NCBI GenBank assembly: GCA_017542305.1
Contig: JAFXXK010000018.1
Location: 1-53,730 of the forward strand
Source: a bacterium
GTDB lineage: Bacteria; Cyanobacteriota; Vampirovibrionia; Gastranaerophilales; Gastranaerophilaceae
DNA length: 53,730 nucleotides
Direction: 5' to 3'
A program made the position numbers and the translations under genes. Under the pieces are notes generated by a model. It worked only from the letters and a program-made list of their open reading frames with translations, did not search any database and had not been told where the DNA came from. Positions within the stretch are counted from its first letter, which is position 1; each line of letters starts with the position of its first letter. Of the stretch, positions 11,352 to 22,868 are shown piece by piece.

Positions 11352-13496
11352 ATGGTAACAACAAAGAAGATTACAAAGAAAGGAACTTACAAAATCAACA
11401 TTAACAGTAAGTCCAAAGACATGGTTTACACCATCAGTAACGCAAAGATTGTAAAAGGTGTACATTTCAACATGACAATTGATTCCTCTAAATTTGATGA
11501 TTGTTTTATGGAAAAAAGCGGAAACAATCTGATGATATACTCATATTCAGATAACGGTAAATTAGTTACAACACAAATTACCAACTATTACAAATATTAT
11601 CCGAAAAATAAAACTATCTTAAAAACAACTTACGGTAGCACGACCAAAGTAATTACTCCGGATGTTGTCAAATCTGCGGCAGCATATTATGATTCTACAA
11701 ACGGATACTACAACAACTTAAATTCAGCGAAGGCATATGTTTTAGGTAAAAAAGGCAAAAATTACTATGATATACAAGCTGTTAGAGATGGTGAAACAAT
11801 CTATGATTTGGGCGGTAACGACACCTATAATATTGATCCTCACAGTGAAAACACCATAACCATAACAGATTTTGCAGGTAATGATAAATACCACTTAGGG
11901 TATGAAACCTATGCTACGGTCCTTGATGCAAAAGGCAATGATAGTTACAACTTCTATAAAAACTATACCTCAAATATTACAGATAACGCCGGTAACGACA
12001 AGTATAAAATCTTTTATAACTATAGCATCACAACTATTACTGATAAAGCAGGTAATGATGCATATGCAATAGATTGTAACGACGATGATGTAGTTATAAC
12101 AGATAACAAAGGTAACGATAAATATAATATAACTTATATGTGGGATTATGTTAATATTACAGACAAGGCAGGTAATGATAAATATAATGCCGTAAACGCT
12201 TATTATGATCTGACTATTACCGATAACAAGGGTAATGACAGTTATTCAGTACTGTACGCTGATGATGATGTATATATTACGGATAAAGCAGGTAATGATA
12301 AATATAAAATTACTGCCGTTGATGAAGAACTTAAAATAGAAGACTTTAAAGGTAAAGACATATACAACATAAAAGACGGATGCGACTATACCTACATTTA
12401 TGATTATGCCGGTGCAGATACATATAATATCTCTAACCAAACTGAATATATGTATATCTATGACGGAAAAGCAGATGGCGTAAAAACAAGCGGCAACGAT
12501 AAATATAATCTGAGCCAAATTTATTCCGGAAATGTATACGATTACTACGGCAACGATAAATATAATATCAGCTACAATGAATATATGGATATCAAGGATT
12601 ATCACGGTAGTGATGTATATAATTTCAACCAGTCATACGGATATGTTTATGACTATGGCACAGCTGAAAAAGTGGGCAAAAAGACGGATAAAACTTTGGC
12701 AAATGATAAGTATAACATAACGCGTTCTCAAGTTACCGTAAATGATAAATCAGGAAATGATGTCTACAAGTTCAACTATGCTTATGGCAATAATTATTAT
12801 TCATATGTTAAGGATGATGCAGGAAAAGATACCTACGTTGCAAACAAAACTAATCTTAATGTTGCTGATTATGGTTCTTCAAGCGATAGTTATACTTTCA
12901 CTAACTCAAACGGTTATACCTGGGATCAAGGCGGAACAGATACCTATAAAATTACATCCTCACAGGTGACTATTGAAGATGCAAGTGCTTCCAAAAAAGA
13001 CAGCTATACCGTCAATGCTCTCAATAGCAAAGCATATATTAAAGATGGCGGCGGAAGCGGGGATATGCTGACAATTACATCAGCTAGTAAAGGTAATCTC
13101 ATATTCTTGGCAGATTATAGCAAGAATGCTTATGAAGGAAATGGTGAAGTACATTCCGGCTCACTGTTTGTCTTTGATAAAACAAAAGGCGGATATATTG
13201 AAGTCATAGACTTCTTCAAGAAGGGTGATGAGAATTACCTTACATACGGTACAGACGGCAAAGCAACAAAAGGCACCGGCTACATTGAATCTGTAAAAGC
13301 AGGAAAAACAGCCCTTAACAACACTATATCCTCTTATATAACACAATCTCATATTAATAATTGGGCAGGAGAGGTCAGCGCTTGGCTGAATAATGAAGAA
13401 CACTCATACTCAAGTATTGAATCTTTGGTTCAAAACGGATCAGAAGCTGATATTAAAAACTTCATTGCTTACTGTACACAAGAAGGTATTAAGTAG
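11352..13496 (+). CDS. Large RTX-like repeat protein, likely secreted and Ca-binding
   Basis: 714 aa, no signal peptide, acidic. Residues about 150-560 contain some 20 degenerate units of roughly 17-26 aa built on [AK]GNDxYxI...IxD, for example AGNDKYNI and KGNDSYSV. This resembles hemolysin-type calcium-binding repeats (GGxGxDxL) but with Tyr at the hydrophobic position and much longer spacing. The last about 150 aa (from GGGSGDMLTITS) carry non-repetitive strands and an aliphatic/Ser-rich tail, as in type I secretion substrates. AAGGAGA precedes the ATG. No ABC/HlyD exporter is in the window. Adhesin, S-layer or toxin roles are all possible. Confidence 0.7.
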   Translation: MVTTKKITKKGTYKININSKSKDMVYTISNAKIVKGVHFNMTIDSSKFDDCFMEKSGNNLMIYSYSDNGKLVTTQITNYYKYYPKNKTILKTTYGSTTKVITPDVVKSAAAYYDSTNGYYNNLNSAKAYVLGKKGKNYYDIQAVRDGETIYDLGGNDTYNIDPHSENTITITDFAGNDKYHLGYETYATVLDAKGNDSYNFYKNYTSNITDNAGNDKYKIFYNYSITTITDKAGNDAYAIDCNDDDVVITDNKGNDKYNITYMWDYVNITDKAGNDKYNAVNAYYDLTITDNKGNDSYSVLYADDDVYITDKAGNDKYKITAVDEELKIEDFKGKDIYNIKDGCDYTYIYDYAGADTYNISNQTEYMYIYDGKADGVKTSGNDKYNLSQIYSGNVYDYYGNDKYNISYNEYMDIKDYHGSDVYNFNQSYGYVYDYGTAEKVGKKTDKTLANDKYNITRSQVTVNDKSGNDVYKFNYAYGNNYYSYVKDDAGKDTYVANKTNLNVADYGSSSDSYTFTNSNGYTWDQGGTDTYKITSSQVTIEDASASKKDSYTVNALNSKAYIKDGGGSGDMLTITSASKGNLIFLADYSKNAYEGNGEVHSGSLFVFDKTKGGYIEVIDFFKKGDENYLTYGTDGKATKGTGYIESVKAGKTALNNTISSYITQSHINNWAGEVSAWLNNEEHSYSSIESLVQNGSEADIKNFIAYCTQEGIK

Positions 13497-17336: not shown

Positions 17337-17427
17337 AAAATAAATACTCCTCTCTGACATGGGTTTGAACTATTCAAAACCTCTTACATATTCTTTATAC
17401 GGACGGAAAATCTCAAACTTTAGTATA

Positions 17428-17511
17428 TGTAACAAAAGTTTTACAATGACTGCCCGAGAACGCAGCATACAGCGTAACAGATTTGACATATTGGTTATTT
17501 ACAGATACGAT
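17428..17511 (+). promoter_or_regulatory. Promoter and possible operator of the redox/hydrogenase operon
   Basis: TTGACA (17483-17488), a 17-base spacer and TACGAT (17506-17511) form a good sigma-70-type promoter about 70 bases before the first gene. Upstream lies an inverted repeat TGTAA (17428-17432) / TTACA (17441-17445) with an 8-base spacer. It resembles, but does not match, the Rex consensus TTGTnAAnnnnTTnACAA because the half-sites are about two bases too far apart. Autoregulation by Rex is therefore possible but unproven. Confidence 0.55.
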
Positions 17512-17588
17512 TATGTTAGAGTACAGGAATATTTTATAAATTAAAATACATATAAATTAATAGAAATTTTTAACAAGGAGAATAAAAA

Positions 17589-18800
17589 ATGTTATGGTTT
17601 AAATGTCCGCCGAAAATATATTTTAAAAGAGGTTCAGTTGATTTGGCGCTAAGAGAACTTAAAGGGAAAAGGCGTGCATTTATAGTAACAGACAGATATT
17701 TGTTCAATTCCGGTGCAGTCAATGTGATTACGAATATTCTTGAAGATATAAAAACAGATTACCAGATATTTTTTGATATAAAACCAGATCCGGCTAAGCA
17801 GACCATTTATCAGGCTCTGGACATTGTCAGACCATATGAACCGGATGTGATTATTGCGTTAGGCGGCGGTTCACCTATGGATGCAGCAAAACTTATATGG
17901 TTGTTGTACGAACAACCTGACATCAATTTGGAAAATATGCCCCGGAAATATATGGAAATTGATGACAATGCAAGCAGGATACCTGAATTAGGACAAAAGG
18001 CAATGATGGTATGTATTCCAACTACATCGGGAACGGGTTCTGAGGTTTCTCCGTCTATAATTGTCAAAGATGAAGAAAGAAATATAAATTATGCCGTTAT
18101 AGATTATGCATTAACTCCAAATATGGCTATAATTGATCCGAATTTTGTAGATAGTATGCCGCAAGGTTTGACTGCAACTTCCGGTATGGATGCATTAATT
18201 CATGCCATTGAAGCATATTCTTCAAAAATGTCTACAAACTTTGTAAATTCCAATGCTCTTGAAGCTGTTAAATTAGTATTCAAGTATCTCGGACGTTCTC
18301 ACAGAGACGGAAAGAATGACCCTGAAGCAAGGGAAAAAATGCACTATGCCGCTACTATTGCGGGTATGGCATTTGCAAATTCATATATCAGCTTGTGTCA
18401 TACAATGGCTCACAAACTTGGGTCAATGTATAACTTACCATTGGGTGTTACCAATGCATTATTAATTCGTCAGATAATAAAATATAAAATCACCCATGAT
18501 AATGCGGAATCAAAGTTTGCACAAAGATATGGGCAAATTGCTGATGAACTTGGTTTAGGCGGAGATAATGATATTGAAAAATCAGAATTTCTTATAGGGG
18601 AAATAGAAAACCTTATTTCGGAATTAATGTTACCCAGATCCCTGAAATATTTTGGAATAAAGGAAGAAAATTTCAATAATAAAGTTGATGAATTAACCCA
18701 AAATGCGTATGAAACATTCCATACGGAATCTAATCCGCACATGCCTAGTCCTCAGGACATAAAACAGATATATATGGATGCTTACCACGGAGTTTATTAG
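17589..18800 (+). CDS. Iron-dependent alcohol dehydrogenase (AdhE C-terminal-like)
   Basis: 403 aa. It interconverts aldehydes and alcohols with NAD(H). GGGSPMDAAK (about 95-104) is the nucleotide-binding loop of group III ADHs, TTSGTGSE follows, and the metal site is supplied by D in PNMAIIDPN and His in MDALIHAIEAYSS and HTMAHKLG. The opening WFKCPPKIYFKRGSV is close to the ADH half of bifunctional AdhE, but no aldehyde-dehydrogenase half is present. ACAAGGAG precedes the ATG. First gene of a six-gene operon with Rex and hydrogenase-type proteins; it likely disposes of reductant. Confidence 0.92.
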   Translation: MLWFKCPPKIYFKRGSVDLALRELKGKRRAFIVTDRYLFNSGAVNVITNILEDIKTDYQIFFDIKPDPAKQTIYQALDIVRPYEPDVIIALGGGSPMDAAKLIWLLYEQPDINLENMPRKYMEIDDNASRIPELGQKAMMVCIPTTSGTGSEVSPSIIVKDEERNINYAVIDYALTPNMAIIDPNFVDSMPQGLTATSGMDALIHAIEAYSSKMSTNFVNSNALEAVKLVFKYLGRSHRDGKNDPEAREKMHYAATIAGMAFANSYISLCHTMAHKLGSMYNLPLGVTNALLIRQIIKYKITHDNAESKFAQRYGQIADELGLGGDNDIEKSEFLIGEIENLISELMLPRSLKYFGIKEENFNNKVDELTQNAYETFHTESNPHMPSPQDIKQIYMDAYHGVY

Positions 18801-18804
18801 AATA

Positions 18805-19422
18805 ATGGATATTCCCGAAAAAGTAATTGACAGATTATCTTTATATCACTTTATATTAGAGGACTTCGACTCGGATGAGAAATATATTTCGAGTTCTAAA
18901 ATTGCAGAACTCTTACGAATTGACAATTCTCAGGTAAGAAAAGACATAAAATATCTTGATAACTCCGGCAAATGCAGAGTAGGATATGACATAAAACACC
19001 TGAAACAAGCCATTGAAAAGTGTCTTGGTTTTGAGCATAAAAGAGAAGCTTATATTATTGGCGCCGGGAATTTAGGTTCTGCACTGGTAAAATATGACAG
19101 TTTTACGAATTACGGACTGAATATCGTTGCAATGTTTGATAACGACAGCAAAAAAATCGGGCAAAATATAAACGGTAAACCGGTTTATGATATAGCATCA
19201 ATTAACGAAATGATAAAAAAATCAGAAGTTGAAATTGCTATATTAACAGTTCCCAAGAAATACGCAAAGGGAATAGCAAAAATTATTTCTGAAGCAGGAA
19301 TAAAATATATATGGAATTTTACCCCTTGTATATTGGATGTACCAAAAGAAATTCAGGTATGGAACGAAAACTTAATAGGAAGTTTTTTACAATTTACAAA
19401 CAAAGAAGATGAGGATAAATAA
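18805..19422 (+). CDS. rex: Redox-sensing transcriptional repressor Rex
   Basis: 205 aa from the ATG at 18805 (GGAG upstream); a longer in-frame start overlapping the previous gene is less likely. The N-terminal winged helix (about 1-75) has SSKIAELLRIDNSQVRKDI, and the Rossmann domain begins YIIGAGNLGSALVKY with acidic FDNDSKKIG, as in Rex. Rex binds DNA when NADH is low and releases when NADH rises. It lies directly after the alcohol dehydrogenase (5-bp gap) and before the [2Fe-2S] protein, so it probably controls its own operon. Confidence 0.95.
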   Translation: MDIPEKVIDRLSLYHFILEDFDSDEKYISSSKIAELLRIDNSQVRKDIKYLDNSGKCRVGYDIKHLKQAIEKCLGFEHKREAYIIGAGNLGSALVKYDSFTNYGLNIVAMFDNDSKKIGQNINGKPVYDIASINEMIKKSEVEIAILTVPKKYAKGIAKIISEAGIKYIWNFTPCILDVPKEIQVWNENLIGSFLQFTNKEDEDK

Positions 19423-19423
19423 A

Positions 19424-19654
19424 ATGACGAAAGAAATAAAAGTGTGTATGGGAAGTGCATGTTTTGCAAAAGGAAATCAGGATAATCTGGAATATCTAAA
19501 AGAATATATTGAAGAAAATAATCTTGATACAGAAATATCAATAATTGGTTCTCTCTGTGAGAACAAGTGTTCTGAAGGTCCGAGAATTATAGTGGACGGT
19601 ACGGAATATAAAAAAATTACAAGAGAACAAATATCTGAAATATTAAGGAGTTAA
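19424..19654 (+). CDS. Thioredoxin-like [2Fe-2S] ferredoxin (NuoE C-terminal type)
   Basis: 76 aa from the ATG at 19424 (GAGG upstream). The four-Cys pattern of NuoE/HydC-type thioredoxin-fold ferredoxins is present: CMGSAC near the N-terminus (residues 8 and 13) and CENKC further on. It is a stand-alone domain without the NuoE helical N-terminus. It likely passes electrons to or from the hydrogenase-like protein encoded 2 bp downstream. A second copy ends the operon at 22552-22815. Confidence 0.88.
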   Translation: MTKEIKVCMGSACFAKGNQDNLEYLKEYIEENNLDTEISIIGSLCENKCSEGPRIIVDGTEYKKITREQISEILRS

Positions 19655-19656
19655 CT

Positions 19657-21381
19657 ATGGAAAAACGGTATCCGGTCTATACATTAAAAAACGAATGTAA
19701 TGATTGCTATAAATGCATCAGGGAATGCCATATAAAAGCTATAAGAATACATGAAGGAAGTGCCTCCGTTATAAATGATAAATGTATAGCCTGCGGGCAT
19801 TGCGTTACAATATGCCCTGCCGGAGCAAAAAGAGTTCGCAATGATATTGATACCGTAAAAACCCTCTTTATTGCTGGAAAAGAAGTATATGTATCCCTTG
19901 CTCCGAGCTGGGCGGGGGTATATGATATCCCAAAAGAAAAAATGATAGCCGTACTAAAAAAACTCGGCTTTACCGGAGTAAGTGAAACCGCACTCGGCGC
20001 ACAAGAAGTATCAATAAAAACCGCTAAAATACTTAACGAAAGCTCTGCCGGACTTTATATATCTTCAGCCTGCCCCGTTATTGATGACTATGTAAGATTA
20101 TATAAACCCGATTTTGCGAAATACATAACTCCCGTAGCTTCACCTGCATTAACTCATGCAAAACTATTAAAAAAAATGCTCGGAGATAATATTGAAGTGG
20201 TATTTATCGGACCATGCGTCGCAAAGAAAAATGAAGCAGATTCACATCCCGATTTAATGGCGGCAGCATTAACTTTCGATGAATTAAATTATTGGATAAA
20301 AGAAGAATTTATTGATATTGAGAAAACAGAAGTTGATGAAACCTGCAAATTTGTGCCTGAAAATGCTTATGAAGGAGCTTTATACCCGTTGGAAGGCGGT
20401 ATGAATGAAACAATTAAACAGGTCGGCATAGATAAAAACGATGTAACTTTTATCAGCGTAAGCTCAATATCTTCCTTTGATAAAGCCTTAAAAAATATTA
20501 ATCCTGAAAAAATTGAAAACAAAATTTTTGTAGAAGCCTTAGGATGTCTTGGCGGATGTATAAACGGACCCTGCCTGTCAAGCGAAAAATCACGAATACT
20601 GATTACTTCGGACATATATGCAAATACACAATACAGAAATCCAGTACCGAAAGAACCCCGAGTTGTTGTCGATAAAGAATATATTCCGCAGCCTGTCGAA
20701 AAAGTTGAGTACACTATTGAGCAGGTAACAAAAGCATTAAAGAAAATCAGCAAACATTCGGAGGAAGATGAGTTAAATTGCAGCGGATGCGGATATGTAA
20801 GCTGCAGGGAATTTGTAAACGCACTTATTGCGGGTGATGCAGAACCTTCAATGTGTGTTTCATACATGAGAAAAATAGCGGTCAGAAAAGCTGCGGCAAT
20901 GCTTCGTTGTATGCCGTCCGCAGTTGTTATAGTTGATTCAAATTCTGAAATTGTAGAAGCAAATGACTCGTTTATGCACATGTTCTGCGGTAATATGTAC
21001 GATATATTTGCATCACGACAAGATGGATTAACCGGAGCTGCTTTAGACAGAATTGTTCCATTCAGCGAACTCTTTACCTCTGCACTAAGCACCGGTAAAG
21101 ATATTCATCAGGAACATTATGCAATAAAAGACAAGTTATACGACATAAGTATTTTTACAATTGAAGACGGAGAACTCGTCGGAGCTGTTATTTCGGATGT
21201 AACAAAATCCGAAATGGACAGAAGCAAAATTGCACGCAAAGCCAGAGAGGTAATCACTAAAAATATTGCAACCGTTCAGGAAATAGCAAGTCTTCTTGGT
21301 GAACACATGGTAGAAACCGAACTTCTTCTTAATTCGATTGCAGAAGGTTTTGACTCTAATGTTAAAGAGGATAAGGAATAA
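19657..21381 (+). CDS. Sensory-type [FeFe] hydrogenase with C-terminal PAS domain (HydS-like)
   Basis: 574 aa. Two [4Fe-4S] motifs (C14-C17-C20-C24 and C43-C46-C49-C53) precede the H-cluster domain: P1 is SSAC139P, P2 is GPC187VAKK, P3 is EALGC297LGGC301. In catalytic enzymes P1 reads TSCCP; here the first Cys, the proton-transfer residue, is Ala. This is typical of sensory group C/D enzymes. Next come a four-Cys cluster (C375SGC378GYVSC383 and C about 401) and a PAS domain (about 415-520). No HydEFG maturases are in the window. Likely reports H2 or redox state to the downstream phosphatase. Confidence 0.9.
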   Translation: MEKRYPVYTLKNECNDCYKCIRECHIKAIRIHEGSASVINDKCIACGHCVTICPAGAKRVRNDIDTVKTLFIAGKEVYVSLAPSWAGVYDIPKEKMIAVLKKLGFTGVSETALGAQEVSIKTAKILNESSAGLYISSACPVIDDYVRLYKPDFAKYITPVASPALTHAKLLKKMLGDNIEVVFIGPCVAKKNEADSHPDLMAAALTFDELNYWIKEEFIDIEKTEVDETCKFVPENAYEGALYPLEGGMNETIKQVGIDKNDVTFISVSSISSFDKALKNINPEKIENKIFVEALGCLGGCINGPCLSSEKSRILITSDIYANTQYRNPVPKEPRVVVDKEYIPQPVEKVEYTIEQVTKALKKISKHSEEDELNCSGCGYVSCREFVNALIAGDAEPSMCVSYMRKIAVRKAAAMLRCMPSAVVIVDSNSEIVEANDSFMHMFCGNMYDIFASRQDGLTGAALDRIVPFSELFTSALSTGKDIHQEHYAIKDKLYDISIFTIEDGELVGAVISDVTKSEMDRSKIARKAREVITKNIATVQEIASLLGEHMVETELLLNSIAEGFDSNVKEDKE

Positions 21382-21383
21382 GA

Positions 21384-22541
21384 ATGTTTATTGATATAAG
21401 CTGCGCACAAAAGAAAAAATATAACCAGAATGCTTTCGGCGATTATTTTGTTTCGGGCAGATTTCCCGATATGAACAGAGTTGTGGCAGTTCTGTCTGAC
21501 GGTTTAGGCAGCGGAATAAAAGCTAATATTCTTGCATGTATGACATCAACGATGCTGCTCAAGTTTATGGAGAACAATTCTGATATAGAAAAATCCTGCG
21601 AAATAATAATGAACTCATTACCCGTCTGCAAAGTCAGAGGAATCAGCTATTCAACATTTTCCGCCATAGATTGCTACGATGACGGAAAAGCAACAATTGT
21701 AGAAGAAGGAAACCCCGATTTTATATGGATAAGAAATATGGAGGTTCTAAAGCCCGAATACCAAATCATAGAATCTAAAACTTTTAAAAACAGAAAAATG
21801 AAAGTATATTCTATAAAACTTGAAAAAAACGACAGAATAGTATTCTGCTCTGATGGTGCTACGCAGGTAGCTATGGGAACAAAGGGGTATCCGCTTGGTC
21901 TTGAGAGAAAAGGACTAATAAAAATCATTTTAAAAAAATTAGAACAAGAACCCGAAATATCATCAAATGATTTAAGCGATTTTCTTGTAAAACAGATAGA
22001 AATGATTGCCCCAAACAAAGAATTAAAAGATGACACTTCAATTATGTCGCTGTATTGCAGAGATCCGAGAGAAGCTCTGATATTTACGGGGCCGCCATAT
22101 CACCAGGAGAAAGACTCCTATTATGCTACCGCATTTAAGGAATTTAAAGGGAAAAAAGCTATATCCGGCGGAACGACTGCAAACATAATATCCAGAGAAT
22201 TAAATATTCCGGTTACTGCGGAGTTATCTCTTAACTCGGGAAAACTTCCCGGACTGTCAAAGATGGAGGGGGTTGATTTGGTTACGGAAGGAATTCTGAC
22301 ATTAACGAAAACGTTAGAATATCTTGAAAGCGGAAAACCCGAAAAAGATGCCGCCGAAACATTGATGAAATTCATGCTGGACAGTGACTGCATAAACTTT
22401 CTCGTTGGCGCACAGATGAACAAGGCTCATTATGACCCGAATCTGCCGGTTGAAATCGAAATTCGGAAAAATATAATAAAGCAAATTGCTAAAGTTCTCG
22501 AAGAAAAATATTTAAAAAAAGTAAAAGTACAATTTGTATGA
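21384..22541 (+). CDS. SpoIIE/PP2C-family serine phosphatase of the hydrogenase operon
   Basis: 385 aa. The PP2C fold is shown by LSDGLGSGIKANI (about 33-45), FCSDGATQVAMG (about 154-165) and the late metal motif DDTSIMSL (about 216-223). The C-terminal 150 aa contain KAISGGTTANIISREL, a segment I associate with SpoIIE-like proteins located beside [FeFe] hydrogenases. It starts 2 bp after the hydrogenase gene. Inference: it is the output of the PAS/H-cluster sensor, dephosphorylating an unknown (perhaps anti-sigma-antagonist-like) partner that is not in the window. Confidence 0.87.
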   Translation: MFIDISCAQKKKYNQNAFGDYFVSGRFPDMNRVVAVLSDGLGSGIKANILACMTSTMLLKFMENNSDIEKSCEIIMNSLPVCKVRGISYSTFSAIDCYDDGKATIVEEGNPDFIWIRNMEVLKPEYQIIESKTFKNRKMKVYSIKLEKNDRIVFCSDGATQVAMGTKGYPLGLERKGLIKIILKKLEQEPEISSNDLSDFLVKQIEMIAPNKELKDDTSIMSLYCRDPREALIFTGPPYHQEKDSYYATAFKEFKGKKAISGGTTANIISRELNIPVTAELSLNSGKLPGLSKMEGVDLVTEGILTLTKTLEYLESGKPEKDAAETLMKFMLDSDCINFLVGAQMNKAHYDPNLPVEIEIRKNIIKQIAKVLEEKYLKKVKVQFV

Positions 22542-22551
22542 GGTAATAAAA

Positions 22552-22815
22552 ATGGAAAAACTAGTAGTGAAAGTATGTTTAGGAACAACATGTTTTGTAA
22601 TGGGCGGTTCAAATTTACAGGAACTGAGTGAACTCGTTCCCCAAAAATATGGCGACAAAGTTGAAGTTACCGGCAGCCCTTGCCTGGGATTATGCTCTAT
22701 CAAAATGGAATATGCAAAAGCACCTTATGTAAAAGTAGGTAATGAAGTTGTTGAAGATGCAACCGTAGAAAAAGTTATAGCTGCAATAGAAAAACATATA
22801 AATAATAAAAATTAG
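22552..22815 (+). CDS. Second thioredoxin-like [2Fe-2S] ferredoxin
   Basis: 87 aa from the ATG at 22552 (GAGG upstream). Cys pattern CLGTTC at 9 and 14, then SPCLGLC further on, the same NuoE-C-terminal/HydC fold as the protein at 19424, but with a longer tail. It is 10 bp from the phosphatase gene and ends the operon in a terminator. It may supply electrons to the hydrogenase-like sensor or couple it to NADH oxidation together with another flavoprotein. Confidence 0.88.
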   Translation: MEKLVVKVCLGTTCFVMGGSNLQELSELVPQKYGDKVEVTGSPCLGLCSIKMEYAKAPYVKVGNEVVEDATVEKVIAAIEKHINNKN

Positions 22816-22849
22816 GTGACTATATACTTTAAATTACCTAATTTTATTC
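22808..22849. terminator. Bidirectional terminator after the redox operon
   Basis: AAAATTAGGT (22808-22817) pairs perfectly with ACCTAATTTT (22836-22845), loop 18 bases. It includes the stop codon of the last ferredoxin gene and lies between convergent genes. Confidence 0.6.
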
Positions 22850-22868
22850 CACTTACATAAGATAATAA

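Follow-up and report, generated by a model that had tools for sequence, protein, structure and literature searches.

A sensory [FeFe]-hydrogenase operon with a truncated AdhE in a Gastranaerophilales genome, probably acquired from another lineage

A putative H2- and NADH-sensing operon

Analysis of a 53,730-nucleotide stretch of contig JAFXXK010000018.1 (hereinafter, the window) from a Gastranaerophilales genome available as a draft assembly (GCA_017542305.1; 1.70 Mb, 27 contigs, 78% complete) revealed an operon at positions 17589–22815 that encodes, head to tail on the plus strand, an alcohol dehydrogenase (ADH), Rex, a ferredoxin, a PAS-bearing [FeFe]-hydrogenase (HydS), a PP2C/SpoIIE phosphatase and a second ferredoxin. 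It is likely that this operon is a known type of H2/NADH-sensing module, which has been acquired and reduced, has been stripped of its local outputs and now exerts its effect at other loci of the genome. Its unusual part is the lost outputs together with the diverged ADH half, rather than the presence of adhE and rex, which the first-pass annotation of the window had singled out as uncommon. The latter view does not hold, as the same set of genes is found in Ruminococcus albus 7 and in relatives of the window, and the regulatory link between hfsB and adhE is a subject of PMC5707799.

The ADH gene (17589–18800) is followed by rex (18805–19422, with the start placed by homology in an open reading frame (ORF) open from 18778), the gene for ferredoxin 1 (19424–19654, from an internal ATG at 19424 in a frame open from 19409), hydS (19657–21381), the phosphatase gene (21384–22541) and the gene for ferredoxin 2 (22552–22815). 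With gene starts chosen by homology, the intergenic gaps are 4, 1, 2, 2 and 10 bp. Matches to Pfam were obtained along the whole operon, namely, Fe-ADH, Put_DNA-bind_N with CoA_binding, 2Fe-2S_thioredx (twice), Fe_hyd_lg_C with FeS and a weak PAS, and SpoIIE. Rex is full length, with a winged-helix N-terminus and a Rossmann NAD-binding domain recognized above the Pfam and NCBIfam cut-offs as well as by alignment, and both ferredoxins are small thioredoxin-like [2Fe-2S] proteins with four cysteines. The description of the locus as six co-directional, closely packed genes, including two for thioredoxin-like ferredoxins, is thus borne out, with all six plus-strand ORFs confirmed and gaps of 1 to 10 bp. 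Of the boundaries originally drawn, 17428 and 22815, the end stands, whereas the start takes in approximately 160 bp of non-coding DNA.

The hydrogenase is predicted to be a sensory enzyme of group C

In an alignment to group A structures, the H-cluster motifs of HydS read SSACP in P1 (Ala138), GPC in P2 (Gly185) and EALGC in P3 (Leu295). The cluster cysteines are kept, the proton-transfer cysteine (C299) is replaced by alanine, as first read from the sequence, and the domain is preceded by two N-terminal [4Fe-4S] motifs (Fer4 matches) and followed by a Cx2Cx4Cx16C motif (C375-C378-C383-C400), a combination expected of group C (M2f). The presence of a C-terminal PAS domain was also upheld by matches to PAS_8 (E-value of 7e-4) and PAS_9 (2e-3), although both are weak and lie under the Pfam curated cut-offs; the PAS matches of the R. 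albus HydS are comparably weak. A structure model of HydS was poor (mean predicted local distance difference test score of 57), too poor in the PAS region, and was not used.

In a phylogenetic tree of 42 hydrogenases, HydS falls into a clade of 29 sequences that includes the HydS proteins of R. albus 7, Monoglobus and Acetoanaerobium (support 100/99), and it groups with the published group C enzyme of R. albus 7 at 100/99. The four group A sequences form a separate clade (100/100), which rules out a catalytic group A identity and agrees with the sensory role originally assigned, and the seven group B sequences of the family are likewise united (100/99). Support is weak (84/49) for the position of R. 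albus HydA2 and its counterpart in Monoglobus beside HydS, and the program flagged the junctions between groups as places where long branches come together. Consistently, HydS scored 74.9 bits against the NCBIfam group A profile (cut-off 405.95) and 178 bits against the group B1 monomeric profile TIGR04105 (cut-off 450). The features of group D (M2e) do not fit, given the PAS domain, weakly matched as it is, and Gly185 instead of Ser/Thr at the M353 position; these two features therefore favor group C over group D.

The description of groups C and D given in PMC8163306, with C299 not conserved and a C-terminal Cx2Cx4Cx16C, matches the HydS motifs. In sensory enzymes, the C299 position is occupied by alanine in about 43% of cases, including TmHydS, and by cysteine in 17%, according to PMC10055695. 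Because this position varies among the relatives' HydS (threonine in locus L064, cysteine in L069) and is cysteine in R. albus, alanine here is typical rather than defining. TmHydS of Thermotoga maritima (group C), as described in PMC10055695, resembles the window enzyme in having alanine at C299, glycine at M353 and a PAS domain, and differs at M497 (serine versus leucine in the window). TamHydS of Thermoanaerobacter mathranii (group D), as described in PMC8163306, shares with it the two N-terminal [4Fe-4S] motifs, Cx2Cx4Cx16C, a non-conserved C299 and leucine at M497, but lacks PAS and has serine at M353, where the window enzyme has PAS and glycine. On the criteria examined, the window hydrogenase is predicted to be of the sensory group C type.

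Conserved linkage of the operon in the family

Searches of 97 Gastranaerophilales genomes (threshold for HydS homologues, E ≤1e-100) identified HydS in 68, that of the window included, and the window HydS is 79–87% identical to the HydS of 41 relatives' loci. In a class-wide sample, 34 of 117 genomes had a match, all 34 within the same family (63 of the non-matching genomes are not listed). Linkage was counted over the other 67 HydS loci (loci and genomes of this comparison carry L and G codes, respectively), with those having enough flanking sequence as the denominators. SpoIIE lies downstream of HydS in 63 of 63 loci, ferredoxin 1 upstream in 62 of 64 and ferredoxin 2 is present in 55 of 62; hence, the neighborhood proposed to be conserved in related genomes is indeed so, and, considering the first two figures, the operon is not a chance grouping. 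A group B hydrogenase gene follows in 51 of 58 loci and is lacking in 7. Rex is encoded upstream on the same strand in 11 of 61 loci and divergently in 3 of 61, a full AdhE upstream in 9 of 53, and AdhE together with Rex in 8 of 53, so that AdhE with Rex is the minority pattern in the family and group B hydrogenase the usual companion. The complete order, adhE-rex-fd-hydS-spoIIE-fd-hydB, is present in several lineages of the family, and a divergent group A hydrogenase accompanies the operon in 6 of 53 loci. The sensor-linked genes thus switch between genera, yet all concern electron disposal. Among the papers listed in literature searches, no description of a HydS/Rex operon in Gastranaerophilales was encountered.

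Two side observations were made during this comparison. In L095, L096, L097, L099, L101 and L107, a set of group A hydrogenase genes, which represents a further electron sink, lies beside the sensor operon in divergent orientation. Furthermore, loci of the Gastranaerophilales type occur in records titled Acinetobacter, Heliobacteriaceae, Desulfovibrio and Elusimicrobia (L061, L068, L069, L075, L080), which are probably mislabeled bins.

Relationship to known systems

A protein search of plasmids identified the HydS of R. albus 7 on pRUMAL01 (NC_014824.1), with which the query shares 32% identity across 97% of its length. The locus has the order rex, adhE, phosphotransferase, ferredoxin, ferredoxin, HydS, SpoIIE and a 4Fe-4S protein that passes the B1 hydrogenase cut-off. 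Like the window, it combines, on one strand, rex, an adhE-type gene, ferredoxins, a PAS-bearing HydS and SpoIIE with the same C-terminal domain. Unlike in the window, adhE is full length (905 residues), rex comes first, both ferredoxin genes precede HydS with none after the phosphatase, P1 contains cysteine (SSCCH), the B1-type hydrogenase is retained and an APH-like phosphotransferase is encoded; the latter had no match among the ORFs of 116 loci searched (2 from the window's own genome). The R. albus genes were reportedly found by Zheng et al. in 2014 to form a single transcript. PMC6776011 presents an eight-gene R. albus cluster that encodes a ferredoxin-only hydrogenase (there called A1), a bifunctional alcohol/aldehyde dehydrogenase and a group C sensory hydrogenase, and whose expression was lower by a factor of 111 when R. 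albus grew alongside an H2-consuming partner.

The hfsABCD operon of Thermoanaerobacterium saccharolyticum and T. thermosaccharolyticum, compared through published descriptions, likewise encodes a PAS-bearing sensory hydrogenase, HfsB, and a serine phosphatase, HfsC, and is described as having a regulatory link to adhE and as being preceded by a predicted Rex site (PMC5707799, PMC11837493, PMC5886521). In T. saccharolyticum, unlike in the window, adhE is located elsewhere (Tsac_0416 versus Tsac_1550) and the ferredoxin-linked hydrogenase HfsD is kept. According to the deletion data in PMC5707799, loss of hfsA or hfsB led to a two- to threefold rise in adhE transcripts and to an ethanol yield approximately 1.8 times higher, and no such rise followed deletion of hfsC or hfsD, though both were needed for the high-ethanol state. 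In view of the reports on R. albus and Thermoanaerobacterium, the link between adhE, rex and HydS is not new.

A truncated, diverged ADH and a missing hydrogenase

Whereas the operonic AdhE of the relatives comprises approximately 880 residues, the window gene encodes 403 and begins exactly at the linker methionine (RREN-M), preceded by AAGGAG. The product corresponds to the ADH half of AdhE, matching only positions 456–866 of the AdhE profile (490 bits versus a cut-off of 951). No trace of the aldehyde dehydrogenase (ALDH) half was found within the window, including the region immediately upstream (17361–17588, plus strand), and a profile search of the whole, incomplete assembly recovered only this ADH half. 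Of the 224 positions invariant in the relatives' AdhE (37 rows, 32 distinct), 58 are changed in the window protein, compared to 0–3 of 228–231 positions when each of seven other AdhE rows was left out in turn. Its branch length reaches 1.27, where the median is 0.054, and a fork with support of 97/89 groups it with 13 AdhE, 12 of them operonic and the other stand-alone, in a tree that flags long rows as unsure. The iron ligands of FucO are listed in PMC10324492 as D196, H200, H263 and H277. The window ADH retains D201, H205 and H271 at the corresponding positions, but the fourth, the histidine of the PHG motif, is Leu285, encoded by TTG, which is two changes away from a histidine codon, so that the iron site is incomplete. 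The suggestion that this ADH removes reductant is accordingly doubtful.

Nevertheless, the gene does not look like a plain pseudogene. Identity to four relatives at the three codon positions is 0.73–0.74, 0.83–0.84 and 0.42–0.48, and the frame contains no stops, whereas neutral simulation to the same divergence gave a mean of 11.5 and at least 1 in every one of 200 runs. A further, rather unlikely proposal is that the ADH half now serves as a regulatory, NAD(H)-binding pseudo-enzyme of an H2/NADH-sensing complex, within a sensor unit that was transferred between lineages, took the place of the resident Rex and HydS and lost its own output enzymes. No second truncated ADH emerged from candidates among the relatives: L090/L071 and L057 appear short but are full AdhE with broken frames (L090 and L057 were tested), L087 is a different Fe-ADH, and the other short sequences start at a contig end or close to one.

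The second missing output is the group B hydrogenase. After ferredoxin 2, at the site occupied by its gene in most relatives, the window contains a 53-bp gap (22816–22868) followed by a convergent gene of the genus type.

Horizontal origin and resident copies

Between rex and ferredoxin 2, inclusive, the operon DNA shows 73–76% identity to genomes of other genera (G034, G093, G012 and G039), whereas from ferredoxin 1 or HydS onward it is 66–67% identical to three genomes of its own genus, in which the operon has no rex. By contrast, the nearby glgP is 83–85% identical to the own genus versus 78% to G034 and G093, and the proteins of the right-hand neighbors are 76–83% identical to those of genus-mates. 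A single clade of the window and its genus-mates was rejected for HydS plus phosphatase in a post hoc approximately unbiased (AU) test (p = 1e-33; 22 rows, quick tree). Since HydS and the phosphatase group with other genera rather than with their own, sequence comparison points to horizontal origin and DISPLACEMENT, with the unit probably acquired from another Gastranaerophilales lineage. None of the 68 HydS-bearing family genomes contains two HydS copies.

The genome of the window encodes three [FeFe]-hydrogenases, namely, HydS and two enzymes on other contigs, C6 (above the NCBIfam group A6 cut-off) and C14 (above the group B1 cut-off). The C14 enzyme forms a clade with those of genus-mate G001 and of G073 (100/100) and shares 90% identity with its counterpart in another genus-mate, G071. 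Next to coaX, on C6 (L169 4128–4529), there is also a resident Rex of 133 residues, which has lost the winged helix and retains the NAD-binding part. Full-length Rex proteins of 204–235 residues adjoin coaX in genus-mates G001, G071 and G041 and in G010 and G006 from other genera, with the length being 204 residues in all three genus-mates. The resident Rex may have become dispensable as a DNA-binding protein because the operon rex arrived.

The phosphatase and its possible partners

The phosphatase has the PP2C fold and the metal-binding aspartates (SDG, DG and DD), and approximately 160 residues follow the PP2C domain (22059–22538, plus strand), in agreement with the extra C-terminal domain noticed initially. 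The same domain is found in the HydS-linked phosphatases of R. albus and Monoglobus. It yielded no Pfam match up to an E-value of 5, the best sequence match in PDB had an E-value of 0.053, and structure comparison barely probed it; it may be a new domain of the proteins that partner HydS. The invariable position of SpoIIE after HydS supports the pairing of the phosphatase with the sensor.

On contig C10 of the same genome, a STAS protein adjoins a 775-residue PP2C-HATPase protein (L168 4692–7333). Nothing ties either of them to the window phosphatase. They may constitute a self-contained partner-switching pair, which could share a target with it.

Rex sites upstream of adhE

Upstream of the operonic adhE of the relatives, 28 distinct sequences were searched for operators and compared with resampled sequences. 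The clostridial Rex site, TTGTTAA-N4-TTAACAA, is not enriched (up to 3 mismatches in 3 of 28 versus 4.1 in resampled sequences) and was discarded. TTGTGA-N6-TCACAA, which we take to be a form of the Rex-site consensus and which was chosen after the sequences had been seen, occurs with up to 2 mismatches in 9 of 28 (0.3 expected) and with up to 3 in 25 of 28 (3.5 expected). Genome-wide, it is no commoner than the control in 5 of 6 genomes, and in the window genome there are 4 sites versus 1. In each of two genus-mates, one of three sites, with one mismatch, lies before a stand-alone adhE, at 107 and 124 bp, whereas none of the three inspected sites of the window genome's four precedes an obvious hydrogen gene. 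Given that the genome-wide counts do not exceed the control in five of six genomes, that the sequences share ancestry and that this form was selected post hoc, the pattern constitutes support rather than proof. For comparison, Rex sites have been predicted upstream of both hfsABCD and adhE of T. saccharolyticum, as stated in PMC5886521.

A conserved block, AATTAAGGAATTTAATCACAATT, was also observed about 40 bp before the relatives' operonic adhE (e.g., L034, L035, L047 and L062); 21 of the 28 sequences carry it with up to 3 mismatches. It is absent from the window, where the best match has 9 mismatches.

Proposed mechanism and alternative explanations

We propose that the operon would function as a two-input sensor of the R. 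albus hydS and Thermoanaerobacterium hfs kind. HydS would read H2 at a slow H-cluster and relay its state, via an additional [4Fe-4S] cluster and the PAS domain, to the product of the adjacent gene, the PP2C phosphatase, which would dephosphorylate a regulator, for instance a STAS protein, and thereby set the expression of electron sinks; Rex would read NADH/NAD in parallel. The acquired copy would have displaced the resident HydS and reduced the resident Rex to a form that lacks the DNA-binding domain, and the copy's own outputs would have been lost or eroded, with AdhE cut to a diverged ADH half and the group B hydrogenase gone. Because of this loss, the sensor would most likely act in trans, e.g., on the C14 group B and C6 group A6 hydrogenases. 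What the sequences themselves show is the gene content, the domains and motifs, the phylogenetic placement, the linkage kept among relatives, the truncation and the lack of hydB at this site; H2 sensing, signaling between HydS and the phosphatase, its target, and both the direction and the cause of the replacement are inferred.

Several points weigh against this interpretation. As recorded in PMC5707799, deletion of the T. saccharolyticum phosphatase gene hfsC left adhE expression unchanged. The direction of control also differs, in that loss of hfsB raised adhE (PMC5707799), whereas the R. albus cluster was higher at high H2 (PMC6776011). A search of the region before the window operon (17361–17588) gave no Rex operator, the best operator-like matches having 5 mismatches to either of the 18-bp forms tried. 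The hydrogenase tree had no group D reference, so that it does not separate groups C and D, and the group used in the AU test, though set by genus code, was tested after that tree had been seen. Old duplication with differential loss could account for the phylogeny as well, and a metagenome-assembled genome from a termite (L075) has two HydS. Finally, HydG was not detected in the 78%-complete assembly, nor was HydF above the cut-off; because 89 of the 97 family genomes have HydG, these gaps are probably due to assembly incompleteness.

Alternatively, HydS could still work as a slow hydrogenase supplied by the two small ferredoxins, in which case the operon would serve ethanol/H2 metabolism and not sensing. 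The flanking ferredoxin genes speak for this, as do the H2 turnover that TmHydS and TamHydS keep to some extent (described in PMC10055695 and PMC8163306) and the AdhE and, more often, group B hydrogenase co-encoded in relatives. Yet the HydS clade stands apart from groups A and B, alanine at the proton-transfer position, Gly at M353, PAS and the ever-present phosphatase are not those expected of such an enzyme, and HydS and SpoIIE are equally well conserved in the window even though the metabolic partners are gone or broken, which makes a metabolic unit improbable. The same conservation, as strong as between other relatives, bears on the possibility that the operon is a decaying remnant being lost from the species, with no function left. 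Loss of the ALDH half, the group B hydrogenase, the Rex-operator-like site of the relatives and a metal ligand of the ADH would be expected in this case, but all six ORFs are open, and the codon-position pattern and lack of stops in the ADH speak against it, so that we find decay hard to credit. An assembly chimera, which would explain the foreign origin, the truncation and the missing hydB at once, is an unlikely source of the arrangement. The draft is fragmented and incomplete and both boundaries of the operon fall between genes; nonetheless, genus-type genes lie on both sides in one contig, that on the right only 53 bp from the last gene, the ADH begins exactly at the AdhE linker behind AAGGAG, and the 58 diverged positions are not what a false join would produce.

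If the operon is a reduced sensor, the window offers a natural case of a sensor parted from its output, in which action of HydS and the phosphatase beyond their own operon becomes testable. More broadly, the distribution of HydS indicates that the H2-sensing/ethanol-control module of Clostridia is widespread in non-photosynthetic cyanobacterial relatives from the gut, where it adjoins electron sinks that differ by genus (AdhE, group B hydrogenase or group A hydrogenase). How H2 is controlled in rumen bacteria is relevant to methane formation.

Elsewhere in the window, a 714-residue protein encoded at 11352–13496 on the plus strand contains many repeats of the GNDKY/TITDNAGND type.

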